Below are positions 5,555-12,164 of a stretch of DNA of 64,000 nucleotides, in pieces; within the stretch, counting starts at the first letter, position 1, and each line of letters begins with the position of its first letter. A model generated the notes under the pieces. It was not told the DNA's origin, made no database searches, and saw only the letters and a list, made by a program, of their open reading frames with translations. The position numbers were made by a program, and so were the translations under genes. Source of the stretch: Mucilaginibacter ginsenosidivorans (GTDB taxonomy: Bacteria; Bacteroidota; Bacteroidia; Sphingobacteriales; Sphingobacteriaceae); NCBI RefSeq assembly GCF_007971025.1, contig NZ_CP042436.1:1798001-1862000 (forward strand), read 5' to 3'.

Positions 5555-6423
5555 GCAGCCGGTTCTCTTTTATCATCCTGACGTATAACGAAGAGTTGCA
5601 CCTGCCACGATTGCTGGAATCGGTCAAGGGTCTGGATGCACCGGTTTTTATACTCGATTCGGGAAGCACAGATAAAACCATAGAGATAGGCGAACAATAC
5701 CACGCACAATTTTTGCAGCATGCTTTTGAAAATCATCCTAAACAATGGGATTTCGCCCTCAAAAATTTTCCGGTTACAACGCCATGGGTGATCTGCCTGG
5801 ATGCGGACCAGATCGTGACGCCGGAACTGAAGACACGATTACGGGATTTTAAGGATGAAGATCATAAGGACATTGATGGCATCTATTTCAACCGGAAGAA
5901 CTTCTTCAAGGGCCGATGGATAAAGCACGGAGGGTATTATCCCTTTTACCTGCTGAAGATGTTCCGGTTCGGTGTGGGCTACTCAGATACCAACGAAAAC
6001 ATGGATCACCGGCTCGTTGTTCCGGGGAAAACGGAGGTTTGGAAGGATGGCATCATCCTGGAAGAAAACCTGAAAGAGAACAGTATTCGCTTTTGGATAG
6101 ATAAGCACAACAGCTACAGCGACCTGGTTGCGCAGGAAGAAGTGGAGCGTATGAAACTGGCCCGCTCGCAAACCGTGCAGCCCCGGTTTTGGGGTTCGCC
6201 GGACGAACGCACTGCCTGGCGCAAGCAATTGTGGTGGCGGCTGCCGCGCTATGTGCGCCCGATGCTTTACTTTACCCAGCGCATCATTTTTCAACTGGGT
6301 TTTCTTGACGGCCGGACGGGTATCATTTTCCACTTTTTGCAGGGGTTTTGGTTCCGGCTTATTGTGGACGTCAAGATAGACGAGTTGTTAAAACAGGAAA
6401 AGGATGGCAAAGCGAGTATTTGA
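5551..6423 (+). CDS. glycosyltransferase family 2, TTG start
   Basis: This 290-residue GT-A enzyme starts FSFIILTYNEELHLPRLLES, has LDSGSTDKT and a DAD metal/nucleotide-sugar triad at residues 84-86, all standard for GT2. I place the start at TTG 5551 because it forms a TTGA overlap with the preceding stop and puts the first strand at residue 4; the frame extends upstream to a TTG at 5497, but that segment only shadows the methyltransferase gene. The C-terminal 90 residues are rich in Trp/Arg with a hydrophobic patch, suggesting membrane contact. It probably initiates or branches the polysaccharide, as WaaE/KdtX-like GT2 enzymes do. Confidence 0.85.
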   Translation: MSSRFSFIILTYNEELHLPRLLESVKGLDAPVFILDSGSTDKTIEIGEQYHAQFLQHAFENHPKQWDFALKNFPVTTPWVICLDADQIVTPELKTRLRDFKDEDHKDIDGIYFNRKNFFKGRWIKHGGYYPFYLLKMFRFGVGYSDTNENMDHRLVVPGKTEVWKDGIILEENLKENSIRFWIDKHNSYSDLVAQEEVERMKLARSQTVQPRFWGSPDERTAWRKQLWWRLPRYVRPMLYFTQRIIFQLGFLDGRTGIIFHFLQGFWFRLIVDVKIDELLKQEKDGKASI

Positions 6424-6970
6424 AAAAGGTTCGCCGCTGCGATTTGTAGTGACGTTTTTAACACTGTTCCTGCTATTTTACTACTTCAACATCTTCTTTT
6501 TCGGTATCACGTCGCCCGGCAATCATTATAGCGACTTCCTGGCCCGGCACCTCAATTATATCCAGGCCTTACGCACTTTCCTGCTGGCATCCACCAAAAC
6601 TGTACTTTCGTGGTTCGGCTTCACATCGATCTATAATAACACCGAAATACTGGTAATGGGCAAGGGGCGCCTTATCCTGATCTATTCCTGTTTAGGCCTG
6701 GGCCTGATGAGCTTTTTCAGCGCTTTCGTCATCGCTTATCCCCAAAAATTAAAATCGAAACTGCTGTTTCTTATTTGCGGGATAGCGGTTATCCAGGTGC
6801 TGAATATCCTGCGTTTTGTGTTGCTGGCCGCTTTCTGGAAGCAAAGGCAGGGGCTAATTTTGGATCATCACGCTATTTTTAACATCATTATTTATGTAAT
6901 TATCGGCTTAAGTCTTTACATTTGGGTGAAGTCCGCCGAAAGAACATCCGCAGGCCATGCAGAAAACTGA
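6404..6970 (+). CDS. xrtY: exosortase-family transpeptidase (XrtY-like)
   Basis: This is a 188-residue integral membrane protein with about five to six transmembrane segments. The exosortase/archaeosortase triad is visible: Cys96 in IYSCLGLGLM, Arg137 in NILRFVLLA and His155/His156 in LDHHAIFN. Such enzymes cleave a C-terminal sorting signal of exported proteins and are thought to transfer them to a cell-surface acceptor. The gene overlaps the upstream glycosyltransferase by 20 bases and the downstream acetyltransferase by 14, so it is embedded in the exopolysaccharide operon. No protein with an obvious sorting C-terminus was seen nearby. The Y subtype is inferred from the neighbouring Wzy-like and XYAG1-like genes. 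Confidence 0.78.
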   Translation: MAKRVFEKGSPLRFVVTFLTLFLLFYYFNIFFFGITSPGNHYSDFLARHLNYIQALRTFLLASTKTVLSWFGFTSIYNNTEILVMGKGRLILIYSCLGLGLMSFFSAFVIAYPQKLKSKLLFLICGIAVIQVLNILRFVLLAAFWKQRQGLILDHHAIFNIIIYVIIGLSLYIWVKSAERTSAGHAEN

Positions 6971-7508
6971 TCTTTCAGCCTATAATAATCACCCCTATAA
7001 CCCCGGGGGAAATGCCGTGAAAAGGGTGCTTTGGTATTACACCAATATCCTTTTTTTCAAAAGTGCGCTGTTCCCGTTTTATGGTTTTAAAGTTGCGCTT
7101 TTGCGGGCCTTTGGTGCAAAGATCGGCAGGAAAGTTGAAATCAAGCCCTGCGTCAATATCAAATACCCCTGGAATTTGACGATCGGCGACGAGGTGTGGA
7201 TAGGAGAAAATGTGTGGCTGGACAGCCTGGTGATGATCATTATCGGTTCGAACGTTTGTATATCACAGGGCGCCACGCTGCTAACCGGCAGTCATAACTA
7301 TAAAAAAAGCAGCTTCGACCTCCTGACAAGAGGTATCACACTCGAAGATGGTACGTGGATCGGGGCCGGAGCTATTGTTAACCTGGACGTAACGGCACAT
7401 TCACATGCCGTGCTTACCAGCGGCTCGGTTGCCACCGGTGACCTTGAGGCTTATGGGGTTTACCAGGGTAACCCTGCAGTTAAGATACGCGAACGAATAA
7501 TAATATGA
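6957..7508 (+). CDS. left-handed beta-helix acetyltransferase (WcaF-like)
   Basis: This 183-residue protein has hexapeptide repeats (IGDEVWIGENVWLDS, IGSNVCISQGATLLTGSHN, GTWIGAGAIV) and ends with GVYQGNPAVKI, typical of the maltose/galactoside O-acetyltransferase and colanic-acid WcaF branch. The TGSHN segment supplies the conserved catalytic His. It would O-acetylate a sugar of the exopolysaccharide using acetyl-CoA in the cytoplasm. It overlaps both neighbours, by 14 and 4 bases. Confidence 0.88.
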   Translation: MQKTDLSAYNNHPYNPGGNAVKRVLWYYTNILFFKSALFPFYGFKVALLRAFGAKIGRKVEIKPCVNIKYPWNLTIGDEVWIGENVWLDSLVMIIIGSNVCISQGATLLTGSHNYKKSSFDLLTRGITLEDGTWIGAGAIVNLDVTAHSHAVLTSGSVATGDLEAYGVYQGNPAVKIRERIII

Positions 7509-9076
7509 TAACTGCCTACCAGAATCTGCCAAAAGCTATCATGGCCTTTTTATACCTGGCCGTAATAGTATTGGGTATAATGATATTCATTGCCCCTCCG
7601 TCCATCTTTCCCGACCCGGCCAATGGGTTCCGGGTAATGCGCTCCATGCAGTTAGGCGGCGGCTTTAACCGGCTCATAACACCCGATGCTGATAACCTGA
7701 CCAAAAACACTTCGGAATTTTTAACGTGGTGGTCGCCGGGGCAATACCTTGTTCCCTATACCTTCAAACTGTTAATTGGCGTTAACACCGGCCAGGCTTC
7801 GGCGCTAACCATTACGCTGTGCCAGTTGCTCGGGCTCGGAGGCTTTTATGCGTTCTTCAAAAAGATCGGTTTTAGTCCGCTTATCTCCTCGCTGAGTTTA
7901 TTGTTCATCGCCTGCCAGCAGTTTTTCGTGGTGCCCTATGTATTCTATAATGGCGGCGAAATATTGCTGTTCGCGTTTTTGGGCTGGTTCCTGTATGGCT
8001 GCACGGCAATAAATACGGTTGGCTGGCAATTGACCCTGTTCGTGCTGCTAGCGGGATGGATAGGATTTTTCTGCAAGTCATCCGTAGTTTGGATGTACGC
8101 CGCGGGTTTGCTGTTCCTTTGGATGCGGCTGTCGTCCCTGCGTCCATCGGCCGAATGGATCAGGAACGCTGTATGGATAGGTTTGCCGGCAATTGTTTCG
8201 ATGGTTTCTATCTGGCTGTTTTTCCTTTCCAAAGGGCAAAACCCGGCATCGGTTTCGGCCGGGGTCAAACTGAGCCTGAAGGCAATTTTCTTTCCGCTGG
8301 CATCGCCCATCCTGTCGGGATTTTCTGTTGATGATCTTTCACATGGTTTGATCTATCATACGGGAAAAGCTATATTTTCGAATACGGAGGCCATCATCCT
8401 GCTGGCCCTGCTTGCGTTTTTGAGTTTGTGGCTGATACAGGGCGTTGTCCGGGCGGTTCCCGATAAAAACTACAAGCTGCTTGTGCGCGTGTTCTATATC
8501 GCATCCGTTATATTCTTTTGTATTGCCTACCTCAGGCAAATGACCATATCTTACGAGGCAAGGCATTTCCGCATCATCGGGCTTATCGTCGTTCCCGGTG
8601 TATTGTACCTGTTGAGTAAAGTTAAATTGCCCGTTTATCGTGTCGCTTTTGGTTTGATATGGGCGGGTATTGCGGTTTCGAGCGTGATCTATATAGTTAA
8701 AGGGTACAGCTTTAACGGTACCAAAAGCGCCCGCGGCTTTTCTGGCATTGCACAACAGGCTATAGACCAGAAGGCGCTGAATGAAGTGATAGCACTGGAC
8801 AAAAAAAACAGGGACGCTATTTTTGTTTTTGTGAACGAAAGCCTCGGCCTCGAGATCAGGCATAACCGGGTGGTTACGCTGAACCCTATCGGCGACGACC
8901 TGCGTATTGATTATGATGATTACGAGCAGGGGGGCCACGCCGGGCCGCTATACATCATCCTGCCCGAAAGCTATGCGGGGCCGAAGGAAAAATTCATTCT
9001 AAAGTCCTTCCCCGATTATAAAGGCTGGTACGGAAGCATGCTGAGCGATAATTATGTGATGTATGAGGCCAAGTGA
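7505..9076 (+). CDS. polytopic membrane protein, possible GT-C-type transferase
   Basis: This 523-residue protein has about eleven to twelve hydrophobic segments through residue 400 and a C-terminal soluble domain of about 110 residues that begins near GYSFNGTKSARG. An early periplasmic-type loop carries PDADNLTKNTSEFLTWWSPGQY, a placement like the first loop of GT-C enzymes, but no family motif is certain. It ends the exopolysaccharide operon with a 4-base overlap. A role in adding a sugar or other group outside the membrane is plausible. I cannot name the family. Confidence 0.7.
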   Translation: MITAYQNLPKAIMAFLYLAVIVLGIMIFIAPPSIFPDPANGFRVMRSMQLGGGFNRLITPDADNLTKNTSEFLTWWSPGQYLVPYTFKLLIGVNTGQASALTITLCQLLGLGGFYAFFKKIGFSPLISSLSLLFIACQQFFVVPYVFYNGGEILLFAFLGWFLYGCTAINTVGWQLTLFVLLAGWIGFFCKSSVVWMYAAGLLFLWMRLSSLRPSAEWIRNAVWIGLPAIVSMVSIWLFFLSKGQNPASVSAGVKLSLKAIFFPLASPILSGFSVDDLSHGLIYHTGKAIFSNTEAIILLALLAFLSLWLIQGVVRAVPDKNYKLLVRVFYIASVIFFCIAYLRQMTISYEARHFRIIGLIVVPGVLYLLSKVKLPVYRVAFGLIWAGIAVSSVIYIVKGYSFNGTKSARGFSGIAQQAIDQKALNEVIALDKKNRDAIFVFVNESLGLEIRHNRVVTLNPIGDDLRIDYDDYEQGGHAGPLYIILPESYAGPKEKFILKSFPDYKGWYGSMLSDNYVMYEAK

Positions 9077-9088
9077 CGCGGAGCCTTA

Positions 9089-9652
9089 ATGGATAAATTC
9101 TGCGAAGCAACCTCTCAACTCACCCATCTTTCGGCCGAAACAAGGCAAGCGCTTGCTTCCATCGCGAAAAAGCTGGAGTTGCCAAAGGGGCACATCCTGG
9201 TAAAAGAAAATAGCGTTTGCAATAACCTTTATTTCGTGGAAGAAGGTTTAACCCGGACCTACTATTTCAAAGACGGCAAGGATGTTACCGACTGGATAAG
9301 TCCTGAAAACACTTTTGCCGTTTCCATACTCAGCTTTATCAGCCGTAAACCCGACAGTTGGATCATCGAACTTTTAGAACCTTCTGTACTCTATTCGTTC
9401 CCCCACGACAAACTGGAGCAACTTTACTCCAAATTCCACGAGGTTGAAAAGCTGGGCCGGCTGCTTGTCAGTTCGGGCCTGGTGCAATTGCAACAGAAAT
9501 TTGACGATATGCATTTCACCACAGCTGCGCAGCGTTACCAAACGCTGATGGAAACAAATCCCTCCTTTCTTCTCCGCGTACCGCTTGGCATTATTGCGTC
9601 ATACCTCGGTATGACGCAGGAAACCCTCAGCCGCATCCGTTCGCAGGTTTGA
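9089..9652 (+). CDS. Crp/Fnr-family transcriptional regulator
   Basis: This 187-residue regulator has an N-terminal cyclic-nucleotide-binding-like barrel (residues about 20-115, KGHILVKENSVCNNLYFVEEG) and a short C-terminal helix-turn-helix, IIASYLGMTQETLSRIR. The residues corresponding to the CRP/FNR recognition helix read Q-E-T-L-S-R, closer to the FNR type E..SR than to CRP. No cysteine cluster for an Fe-S centre is apparent. Many Bacteroidota members of this length lack a classical wing. It starts only 12 bases after the operon above and may be co-transcribed. The ligand is unknown. Confidence 0.88.
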   Translation: MDKFCEATSQLTHLSAETRQALASIAKKLELPKGHILVKENSVCNNLYFVEEGLTRTYYFKDGKDVTDWISPENTFAVSILSFISRKPDSWIIELLEPSVLYSFPHDKLEQLYSKFHEVEKLGRLLVSSGLVQLQQKFDDMHFTTAAQRYQTLMETNPSFLLRVPLGIIASYLGMTQETLSRIRSQV

Positions 9653-9763
9653 TTTTCTAGCGGTGTGAAAAGATGGGTCATCCGGATCAAAGTTATTTCA
9701 ATATGCTGTATGCGCCGGGTTATCCGGGTACATGTTCTTACCTGAGCAACGGGAGCCATAAAG

Positions 9764-10177
9764 GGCACGGGATTGCCAACAGGGGAAGGTCGTTAACCTG
9801 GCTCGTGGTTTAATGCCCCACAGGTGCCTTTTATTTTTGAAAGCAAAAAATAGCAGCGGGGATTATCAAGGCTGGAAGGCCTTTAGCCTAATTTATAATT
9901 TAATTCAACCCGCTGCATTTTTTTAAGCAGAAAAACAGCGCCGGGGATTATCAACAGGGGAAGGTCTTTAACCTGGCTCGTAATTTAATTCGCCCCGCCG
10001 CTTTTTATTTTTGAAAGCAAAAAATAGCAGCGGGGATTATCAACAAGGGAAGGTCTTTAACCTGGCTCATAGTTTAATTCCACCCGCTGCTTATTTTTAA
10101 ATAAAGAAAAACAGCAGCGGGGATTATCAACAGGGGAAGGTCTTTAACCTTGCTCATAGTATAATTCCACCCGCTAC
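9764..10177 (+). repeat. tandem array of five structured hairpin repeats (family A)
   Basis: Five units begin their conserved GATTATCAA-like box at 9771, 9861, 9946, 10035 and 10122, a period of 85-90 bp. Each has an outer stem (GCAGCGGG at 9853-9860 pairing with CCCGCTGC at 9909-9916; AGCAGCGGG at 10026-10034 with CCCGCTGCT at 10083-10091), flanked by A-runs before and T-runs after. An inner hairpin AGGT-CTTTA-ACCT is kept in units 3, 4 and 5, is AGGT-CGTTA-ACCT in unit 1, and becomes AGGC-CTTTA-GCCT in unit 2, a compensatory pair change. The outer stem also changes on both sides in units 1 and 3. The last unit's outer stem is partly broken. The array could be tandem small RNAs, multi-terminators or REP-like mobile palindromes; the sequence does not decide. 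Confidence 0.9.
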
Positions 10178-10373
10178 CGATCTCCAAATGATCCTAAATC
10201 GGTCGCTTTTTTCCCTGCGTTTAAAATGTCGCCCCTGCTGTAATAAACAATATTGGCAAGACGAGTAAGTGTTTGTTCGGTTTTGCCTGCCAGGATGTGC
10301 CATATAGTTTTCTTTTTCCGCCCGTCAATTATTCCACACCGGGAATGTTCTCCTTTGGGCGTTGATGCAGAAG
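10178..10373. other. intergenic stretch without recognisable feature
   Basis: Between the two palindrome families I see no open frame with coding character, no tRNA and no clear promoter. The sequence is mixed, with a CCTGCC/GGCAGG-like short word and an isolated CCCCTGCTGTAATA near 10231 that resembles a decayed arm of the neighbouring repeats. Confidence 0.4.
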
Positions 10374-10681
10374 AAACAGTAGCGGTCTGCTAATGCCAAT
10401 GAATTCATCTTAAGTTTATAACCAGTCCAACTTTTGCCCGTTTTAAAAAGACAGCAGCTGACTACCAAACGCGTAAGTCCAACCTTCAATTAATTATCAA
10501 TCCCGCTACTGTTTATGTTTTGAGTCACGATCGTCCGCTAATGCAATGCAAATCTGCGAATGGAAACTTGGAAATTTTTCAAGCGTAAACTTGTACTGCT
10601 ATTCATGGTGCTGAAAAACAGCAGTAGATTACCAAACACGATGAGTCCGACTCAGTTTAATTTTTAATCCTCCTGCTGTTT
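10374..10681 (+). repeat. second family of palindromic repeats (family B)
   Basis: AAACAGTAGCGG at 10374-10385 is the perfect inverse of CCGCTACTGTTT at 10503-10514. AAACAGCAG at 10616-10624 is the inverse of CTGCTGTTT at 10673-10681. Inside both copies of the smaller hairpin (starting 10451 and 10616) a shared core GA(C/T)TACCAAAC, then AGTCC and a TTAAT-rich right side, recurs. A further word, GCTAATGC followed by AATG, recurs at about 10388 and 10535. The core resembles family A (GATTATCAA, TTTAATT), so the families may be related. The block ends about 85 bases from the 3' end of the DEDD recombinase gene. Confidence 0.7.
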
Positions 10682-10766
10682 ATATCATGGGTTAATACGT
10701 CCTATCGGCCGTTAAGGCGGTGCCAGGCAGATGGAGCATGATTTGTGTTCGATAGCTGATAATTGC

Positions 10767-11807
10767 TCAGGCTGTCCTCCTTTCATACAACCGGTTCTGC
10801 CGCACACAGGCGTACACCCGCAGGATCAGTTTTGACCGGAGTGCGTTGATAACCGCTCTTTTTGGCTTTCCTTCACCCTCGGTCTTGCGTTCATAGTATT
10901 GTTTTAACTGCTGGTCGGCCTTCCTGCAGTTCAACGCACAAATGTGCAGCAGGGCCTTCATACGTTTGTTTGCATACTTCGAAATGCGGGCTTTGCCGGT
11001 GTAAGTCCCGGATTCATTTTTGAACGGGGCGACGCCCGCATAGCAGGCAAATTTCTTTGGACACGTAATATTGCGGAATTCGTTGGTGCTGATCAGCATC
11101 TGTATAGCGGTTATGCGCCCGACACCCGGGACGGATTCTATGATTGCCCGCAGCCTTTTGAGTTCCGCATCGGCGTCGAGCAGCCGGTCAATCGCTGTTT
11201 CCATTCCCTCCAGGTCTGCTTTCATGGCAGTCATCGTGCGCCGGCACAACTGCTCATTCTGACGATGGAGCCCTTTTTTTATAAAAATGCGCTGATCGGC
11301 AACGGGTTTGTTCATCGCCAGGATATTGGAAAGCAGGCGGTTCCTGAGCGAGAACAGGGCGGCAAGTTCGGCGATGACCGGGCGGCGGGCGCTCTGTAAG
11401 CGTAAGTCCCCCTGGTTTTTCCTGCAGTATTGTGCGATCCGGATCGCATCGGTCTTATCATCTTTGCCGCGCATCAGCCCCATCGACCGCTTAATGTGCA
11501 GCGGGTTTTCGATGACCAGGTCCGCTTTCGACTTTCGCAGCACTTCACTGAGGTGGTTGCCGTATATGCCCGTAGATTCCATGCAGAACAAGGCCCGGGT
11601 TAAGGTGAAGCCGCTGATCTGTTTTAACTGCTGCAGAAATTCCAGGATGGCTTCCGGGGTATTTATATGTGTTTCATGAAAAAGCAACCGGCTTTGGTTC
11701 AGCACCGCATAGTCCAATTTTCCTTTGGAAACGTCGACACCCACGAAGTGGGTATATTTTTTCCCCCGTTTTTTAATTGGCACCGGGAGGCCTGTGTCAT
11801 GCTCCAT
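10767..11807 (-). CDS. IS110-family transposase (DEDD recombinase)
   Basis: This 346-residue protein has an N-terminal RuvC-like DEDD domain (FVGVDVSKGKLDYAV; FCMESTGIYG; GKDDKTDAIRIA) and a C-terminal Transposase_20 domain (SVPGVGRITAIQMLI; FACYAGVAPFKNESGTYTGKA) with the conserved serine in NESG. Both catalytic halves appear intact. IS110 enzymes insert circular intermediates guided by a bridge RNA encoded in the element's non-coding end. No terminal inverted repeats are obvious, as expected for this family. The element's borders cannot be set from one copy. The gene faces the palindrome block with its 3' end and a small XRE gene with its 5' end. Confidence 0.93.
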   Translation of the reverse strand: MEHDTGLPVPIKKRGKKYTHFVGVDVSKGKLDYAVLNQSRLLFHETHINTPEAILEFLQQLKQISGFTLTRALFCMESTGIYGNHLSEVLRKSKADLVIENPLHIKRSMGLMRGKDDKTDAIRIAQYCRKNQGDLRLQSARRPVIAELAALFSLRNRLLSNILAMNKPVADQRIFIKKGLHRQNEQLCRRTMTAMKADLEGMETAIDRLLDADAELKRLRAIIESVPGVGRITAIQMLISTNEFRNITCPKKFACYAGVAPFKNESGTYTGKARISKYANKRMKALLHICALNCRKADQQLKQYYERKTEGEGKPKRAVINALRSKLILRVYACVRQNRLYERRTA

Positions 11808-11818
11808 TATTATTAATT

Positions 11819-11856
11819 GTATCTATTAAAGATACAAATGTATCTATATTAGATAC
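11819..11856. promoter_or_regulatory. twin palindromic operators between recombinase and XRE gene
   Basis: Two palindromes of the form GTATCT-N5-AGATAC lie at 11819-11835 and 11840-11856. Their centres are 21 bp apart, two helical turns, so bound dimers would sit on one face. The nearer is 12 bases upstream of the recombinase ATG, so it would block its promoter or leader. The divergent XRE gene is the natural candidate to bind here. Confidence 0.7.
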
Positions 11857-11930
11857 AAAAACAAATTTTGCGGGGGATTTTTTTTTTGTGATGTAACTTG
11901 AGTGGAATTTTCAATACAACCGCCGGCTGC

Positions 11931-12164
11931 ATGACCAATATAGGGCTATACCTGAAGAAAAGATCTGTGAATCTGTCGGACGTGTCGCGGAAGACGGGTT
12001 TGGGTCGGTCCAGGCTAAGCAAACTGTCCATTAATCCGAATACCAGGGTGACAGCGGAGGAACTTTATAAGATCGCTCTGGCAATTCAGGAAGACCCCGG
12101 GGAGATGTTCAGGGAGCTGTTTGCCGGGCTCAGCCTGGTAAACTTTCAGGATAACGATGTTTAG
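11931..12164 (+). CDS. small XRE-family helix-turn-helix protein
   Basis: This 77-residue protein is essentially one Cro/C1-type HTH domain: IGLYLKKRSVNLSDVSRKTGLGRSRLSKL, then VTAEELYKIALAIQEDPGEMF. I start it at the ATG at 11931; a TTG at 11898 would add 11 residues without homology value. It is divergent from the DEDD recombinase with paired operators in between, so it is probably an autoregulator and recombinase repressor. This is inference from layout. Confidence 0.75.
   Translation: MTNIGLYLKKRSVNLSDVSRKTGLGRSRLSKLSINPNTRVTAEELYKIALAIQEDPGEMFRELFAGLSLVNFQDNDV

Follow-up and report, generated by a model that had tools for sequence, protein, structure and literature searches.

Three described systems stand closest to the locus reported here. 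Known IS110 elements carry one two-loop bridge RNA each and have recognisable ends (PMC11208160), and the IS110 bridge RNA is likewise presented as a single two-stem unit in the paper on TIGR systems (PMC12045711). In IS1111 elements, whose group is marked by subterminal inverted repeats, one seekRNA of 70-100 nucleotides (nt) per element lies downstream of the transposase gene and on the same strand (PMC11187229). TIGR-Tas systems consist of tandem stem-loops, each with two short spacers in a palindromic stem and with flanking box C/D motifs, beside one Nop-fold protein (PMC12045711). In the 64,000-nt stretch of Mucilaginibacter ginsenosidivorans contig NZ_CP042436.1 analysed here (the window), seven hairpin units (9762-10682) are read on the minus strand just downstream of a gene for an IS110-family RNA-guided recombinase carried by the same strand. 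The protein is like those of IS621 and ISCro4 (PMC11208160) in family, fold and catalytic residues, and the position and length of the units fit a seekRNA. Unlike the known IS110 elements, the locus holds seven hairpins (up to nine model hits in relatives), has no canonical ends and occurs as a single copy; its tandem array also sets it apart from IS1111 elements; unlike TIGR systems, whose effector is a Tas protein, its candidate effector is a complete IS110 recombinase. RNA-guided recombinases are already known, and guide arrays of IS110 elements were not found in the open-licence PubMed Central literature searched (preprints and most subscription papers lie outside it), so the array is new as far as this search extends. 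We regard it as fairly probable that the array supplies the neighbouring recombinase with a series of guide-RNA hairpins.

Units were scored with two covariance models, R1, built from five units of the window, and R2, a later model. The recombinase gene and the units, with their R2 scores, are:

10767-11807, minus strand: IS110-family RNA-guided recombinase of 346 amino acids (Pfam PF01548 and PF02371)
10615-10682, minus strand: candidate guide hairpin unit u7, closest to the recombinase, diverged (55.3 bits)
10448-10515, minus strand: candidate guide hairpin unit u6, degenerate (23.5 bits)
10111-10180, minus strand: candidate guide hairpin unit u5 (57.8 bits)
10024-10093, minus strand: candidate guide hairpin unit u4 (66.8 bits)
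9935-10004, minus strand: candidate guide hairpin unit u3 (62.7 bits)
9850-9919, minus strand: candidate guide hairpin unit u2, with different loops and a C-G swap in the apical stem (63.5 bits)
9762-9830, minus strand: candidate guide hairpin unit u1, at the far end, with a divergent outer stem (24.5 bits)

The initial annotation had described five tandem units spaced 85-90 nt from box to box, each with a conserved box, an inner hairpin and an outer stem. All of this was found again at 9759-10181, the box being GATTATCAA (GATTGCCAA in unit 1), and two diverged units, u6 and u7, lie beyond the five. Unit 2 does exchange T-A for C-G in its inner stem. The compensatory changes claimed for the outer stems of units 1 and 3 held in part: in unit 3, one pair is changed on both sides but another is now a mismatch, and in unit 1 the stem is re-formed, but in a shifted register. 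As also claimed, no protein gene accounts for the array, in which no open reading frame of at least 80 amino acids is present; short frames cross the units on both strands, but the distance from unit to unit is in most cases not divisible by three, and a coding function was therefore rejected. In unit 4, read on the minus strand, the left loop is 10064-10075 (AAACTATGAGCC) and the right loop 10039-10050 (TCCCTTGTTGAT). By eye, a right arm at about 10380-10410 (CCGCTACTGTTTCTT, minus strand) is complementary to the left arm of u6, an indication that another unit, now decayed, may lie between u5 and u6. No Rfam family reached its gathering score in the array (best 22.2 bits for 87 needed), searches of the own genome gave no hairpin units outside this array, and plasmid and phage records held nothing matching 9650-10770. 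Several candidates were set aside by eye: integron attC sites (the boxes have no attC-type core), Type III toxin-antitoxin repeats (no toxin gene seen), CRISPR (the repeats are not identical) and weak DNA matches in three relatives (L006-L008; L and G numbers are our handles for loci and genomes), which were judged chance hits within coding sequence.

Covariation within the five window units alone is modest, with three pairs changed on both sides and 14 of 500 shuffles equally high. With 21 units from 13 genomes, 14 of 17 pairs are changed on both sides (62 cells), a level reached by none of 500 shuffles, and standard pairs fill 95.5% of the pair cells, against 29-52% in slid controls. The selection on pairing in an RNA that had been proposed is thus strongly supported. 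The initial annotation had made its proposal depend on further genomic copies that keep the pairs, and such copies exist in other genomes. Read in the sense of the recombinase, the units follow one layout: the basal stem is succeeded by a box resembling RRTGAATTA and a first loop of some 11 nt, then comes the apical hairpin AGGTT..GACCT, and the second loop leads into TAATTGC. Downstream of relatives of the recombinase, arrays of 60-80 nt hairpins were seen, some with two alternating kinds (G069, G139). The best R2 scores are on the minus strand (66.8 versus 27.2 bits on the plus strand for unit 4), and the opposite-strand matches are weaker shadows of the same palindromes. The earlier suggestion, small-RNA genes on the plus strand that would be independent and each end in a terminator, is not supported: the RNA strand is the minus one, and promoter-like sites show no clear excess (4 versus 2.9 expected).

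The hairpins follow IS110 recombinases from genome to genome. With R1, matches were obtained in 10 of 149 genomes of the genus, the own genome included, and 8 of the 10 non-self matches examined adjoin an IS110-family recombinase; strong relatives of the recombinase itself (E<=1e-100) are present in 23 of the 149, own included. When R2 was applied to 28 loci picked around recombinases, 81 of 105 matches fell within 1.6 kb on the recombinase strand, and 32 of 53 further loci had a match so placed. These 53 were taken from 79 relatives' loci, the other 26 being seven more copies from Weeksellaceae strain MIP2422 and 19 G-handle loci of the first R2 scan. An unselected R2 search, some genomes of which had contributed sequences to the model, gave matches in 38 of 399 genomes of the family (6 of 25 genera); a recombinase homologue lies within 1.5 kb at 27 of 30 loci from this search, and the remaining three end at contig ends. 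The IS110 gene, mere context in the initial annotation, thus emerges as the partner of the hairpins. Arrays stand upstream of the recombinase in L083 (nine R2 matches), L075 (seven) and L103 of Pedobacter panaciterrae (four), and downstream in the window (seven) and L074 (five); for L068 and L080 no more than 207 nt and 243 nt, respectively, of downstream sequence could be read. As separate observations, L076 (G083) holds two different array-clade recombinases in tandem with a common block of units between them, and in two Mucilaginibacter loci (L116, L120) units downstream of the recombinase score partly weakly with R2, hinting at more unit types than this model covers.

The recombinase shows DEDD (RuvC-like) and Transposase_20 domains above cut-off and matches NCBIfam NF033542 (167.4 bits, cut-off 140); its score with NCBIfam TIGR_Tas_endo is 29.1 bits, below the cut-off of 100. 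A PDB sequence search matched ISCro4 and IS621, and with the AlphaFold2 model (predicted local distance difference test score 81), all 11 Foldseek matches at E<=0.001 were complexes of ISCro4 or IS621. D25, E77, D117, D120 and S266, which we take to be the catalytic DEDD residues and serine, are invariant in alignments of 13 and of 21 sequences. The recombinase is apparently intact.

The role of the hairpin was read from relatives that carry a single one. In strain MIP2422, an ordinary IS110 element is present in at least eight copies that are almost the same, and the left loop of the hairpin upstream of its recombinase gene equals the left boundary, whereas the reverse complement of the right loop equals the right end. 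The eight copies differ inside the segment matched by the left loop, which therefore is the target flank. Matches of 8-11 nt at both places, adjoining constant CTTTAG and CATAG, are seen in many more relatives with a single hairpin. In 24 single-hairpin loci, the left loop was compared with the element's own left flank and the right loop with its own right end; the mean match was 6.8 for own versus 4.8 for swapped partners on the left and 7.8 versus 5.4 on the right, differences reached in none of 20,000 permutations for either side. The own match was strictly the longest in 8 of the 24 on the left and 12 on the right; three of these loci (L117, L130, L133) are members of the array clade described below and show no match. 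In 19 of the 24, a second hairpin before the gene holds ATAGAAAT, the element's right end. A donor-binding role for the upstream hairpin is ruled out by the variation of the left segment in MIP2422 and by the presence of the element's end in the second hairpin, and the upstream hairpin is therefore the target-binding loop of a bridge RNA. The order of these relatives, target loop then donor loop, is the bridge RNA layout described in PMC11208160. On sequence grounds, the units of the window are homologous to this target-binding loop. The flanks of some ordinary IS110 relatives (L128, L129, L122, L126, and contigs L015 and L018-L020 of G017) are repeatedly similar to a dispersed repeat of the type TGTCATTTCGA..AGAAATCT, which is apparently the target of those elements.

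The arrays belong to one branch of the recombinase family. When 81 recombinases were placed in a tree, a single clade of 42 (Shimodaira-Hasegawa-like approximate likelihood ratio test, SH-aLRT, 99) took in 27 of the 28 array rows, all of them inside a subgroup of 32 with a support of 84; SH-aLRT is the sole support in this tree and in an earlier one of 63 rows, both of the quick kind. The array label changes 7 times on the 81-row tree versus 23.4 times in shuffles, none of 500 being as low. In the first tree, 27 of 28 array rows were in a clade of 36; that tree and its end counts omitted the 18 of 53 loci lacking an R2 match, which the 81-row tree includes, and their addition enlarged the clade from 36 to 42 rows with arrays unchanged at 27. 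L135 was labelled single in the trees despite two model matches because these resemble a target loop with a donor loop next to it. None of the 42 clade rows, the window included, has the canonical right end, versus 32 of 39 others, and the donor motif is present in 2 of 42 versus 33 of 39; no ATAGAAAT donor loop was found upstream of the window recombinase. The Sphingobacteriaceae clade of the window has thus lost the canonical transposon ends. The array units, those of the window included, have no match to their own flanks (matches of at least 8 nt are sporadic), and the recombinase is a single copy in the window's own genome.

From these data, a mechanism can be proposed. The array would be transcribed, probably with or behind the recombinase gene, and then cut into units. 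Each unit has a basal stem, a conserved box, a conserved apical hairpin and two segments that are single-stranded and some 6-11 nt long; it would load the recombinase with a split address, the two segments pairing with the two strands of a DNA site. Array-bearing members of the clade may no longer move themselves and may work in trans on a number of sites, whose DNA they would join, invert or exchange. We advance only tentatively the further step that the locus is a multiplexed RNA-guided recombinase, a domesticated IS110 enzyme whose split-guide array would rearrange several chosen sites or incoming DNA; it is also possible, and held with the same reserve, that in this multiplexed system the left guides change on a kept scaffold in several lineages and that the sites of the window's subtype are surface-polysaccharide loci. 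Bridge-RNA recombinases are known from mobile elements with one guide RNA each. If the proposal is right, guide arrays show that such an enzyme was recruited for multi-site DNA rearrangement or action on foreign DNA, IS110 is linked with TIGR guide arrays, and compact natural guides of 70 nt, with arrays of them, become available for programmable recombination; a multiplexed system would moreover be the transposon-derived IS110 counterpart of the stem-loop TIGR arrays.

The loops behave in part as guides of this kind should. Across 79 array units, the information content is mostly 0-0.3 bits at loop positions and about 1-1.7 bits in the flanking boxes. The arrays are tandem stem-loops in which both loops are variable. 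Within one hairpin kind of L083, the five left loops all differ and the right loop is identical in four of five; L074, L089 and L081 have nearly one right loop in common and differing left loops. Between the better units of the window, G138 and G109, the scaffold agrees at 33-38 of 44-45 positions and the loops at 1-7 of 11-12; the left loops of the window and G138 agree at 7 of 12, above chance.

A number of observations weigh against a guide array with several addresses. Four of the five main units of the window have nearly identical loops, so that the array may be a duplication rather than several addresses, and within arrays the left guide loop (0.341) does not vary more than the apical loops (0.352) or the tails (0.463). 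In some pairs of species the conservation of the loops equals or exceeds that of the scaffold: the loops of L071 and L084 agree at 9-11 of 12 positions, and in one unit of L090 and L091 the loops agree at 12 and 10 of 12 versus 26 of 36 for the scaffold. In single-hairpin relatives and some upstream arrays, a core dinucleotide is common to the two loops, and in L083 (G080) this core, TC, agrees in both hairpin types; the window units do not preserve it. L148 is an array-labelled row outside the clade. The loss of canonical ends does not prove immobility: array-less clade members of Pedobacter suwonensis (L131, L134) occur twice in one genome, with 95.7% identity over 1450 nt, clear borders, no canonical ends and flanks that differ from copy to copy, and they thus look mobile with other ends. 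The target searches are to be counted here too. A local composite search with 77 units gave 12.71 versus 12.75 in other loci, 2 of 77 beating every other locus, and when local loci were scanned with the loops in either order, the outcome was self-hits or scores close to those of control loci. Searches of the own genome stayed near the control level, with 16 hits versus 7 in the control, three of the 16 being the array itself, and 34 versus 26 in a further search; a genome-wide half-site search in G080 gave 17 versus 19, and another genome-wide run 1 versus 1. A genome-wide search using a loop order afterwards judged wrong gave no hits. No target site having been found, we infer the purpose of the system. 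As an additional observation, L130 and L132 are also array-less clade members with clear borders, near-identical copies and no canonical IS110 ends.

Among other explanations, the one that survives best, although we think it rather unlikely, is that the locus is still a transposon, whose changed ends would be read by changed donor-binding loops and whose extra hairpins would be bridge RNAs that have accumulated or been duplicated and that widen the range of targets. The intact residues of the recombinase agree with it, as do the apparently mobile Pedobacter suwonensis copies, which have neither canonical ends nor an array. The alternating A/B hairpins of L074, L083 and L075 resemble tandem pairs of target and donor loops, and different recombinases (L087, L090) occur in one neighbourhood, as expected from site-specific insertion. 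Such a transposon is, however, difficult to reconcile with array units that do not match their own flanks, with the single copy in the window's genome, with the fact that no two near-identical array recombinases were seen in genomes with two matches, and with contexts shared by related species (L070/L082, L071/L084).

A relic without present function, in which slippage has multiplied a decaying non-coding part of an IS110 element that is itself dead, would account for the low scores of u1 and u6, the loss of the shared core from the window loops and the failure of the searches to find targets, but it is improbable in view of the covariation and boxes conserved across species, the kept catalytic residues and the recurrence of arrays across a clade. 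Equally improbable is an RNA-guided DNA binder that does not recombine, in which the array would programme the silencing or blocking of foreign DNA, a role that is open for nuclease-less TIGR systems: the stem-loop TIGR arrays look similar (PMC12045711) and no target was found in the host chromosome, but all catalytic residues are kept and PADLOC gave no match for the four proteins tried. Finally, independent small-RNA genes, or a repeat of the single-stranded DNA or repetitive extragenic palindromic type unrelated to the recombinase, are hardly credible, for although A and T runs flank the units and the stems pair on either strand, whole-genome model matches track IS110 recombinases and their strand and no other copies were found in the own genome.

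The surroundings of the locus were also examined. Beyond the array lies:

6404-9076, plus strand: end of an exopolysaccharide cluster, with exosortase XrtY, a WcaF-type acetyltransferase and a large protein; recurrent neighbour of the subtype

The large protein (7505-9076) gave no family hit and was taken as a membrane protein. Of the 18 loci of the downstream-array subtype, 11 have a homologue of the exosortase, the acetyltransferase or this protein no more than 5 kb away, versus none of 17 other loci of the clade and none of 27 ordinary ones (Fisher 2e-7, window excluded), in a count that leaves out the 18 loci added late to the recombinase tree. Related loci are not independent, so the link may be one retained ancestral placement; the related pairs L070/L082 and L071/L084 keep their neighbours.

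On the other side, just upstream of the recombinase, three features were recorded:

11835-11865, minus strand: match to a Bacteroidota-type promoter (TTTG-N-TANNTTTG); 4 in the window versus 2.4 by chance
11818-11859, no strand assigned: two tandem 21-nt palindromic repeats (TGTATCT..AGATACA), overlapping the promoter-like match
11898-12164, plus strand: XRE/Cro-type helix-turn-helix protein, divergent from the recombinase (Pfam HTH_26, E 1.8e-9)

TTTG-N-TANNTTTG is presumably the promoter motif of Bacteroidota. The helix-turn-helix protein is possibly a regulator, and the palindromes may be an operator of this regulator. One family of helix-turn-helix genes was also seen near the recombinase in L067, L069 and L081 (Pfam assignment for L067 only). 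Beside other array-clade recombinases, genes of the type making ribosomally synthesized and post-translationally modified peptides were noticed, coding for a lantibiotic dehydratase (L076, with a fragment in L078) and a radical SAM protein (L087, L090). In L071, L073, L084 and L089, small proteins near the recombinase, one of them without a Pfam hit, were taken by eye as conjugative-transposon proteins (Tra-type).
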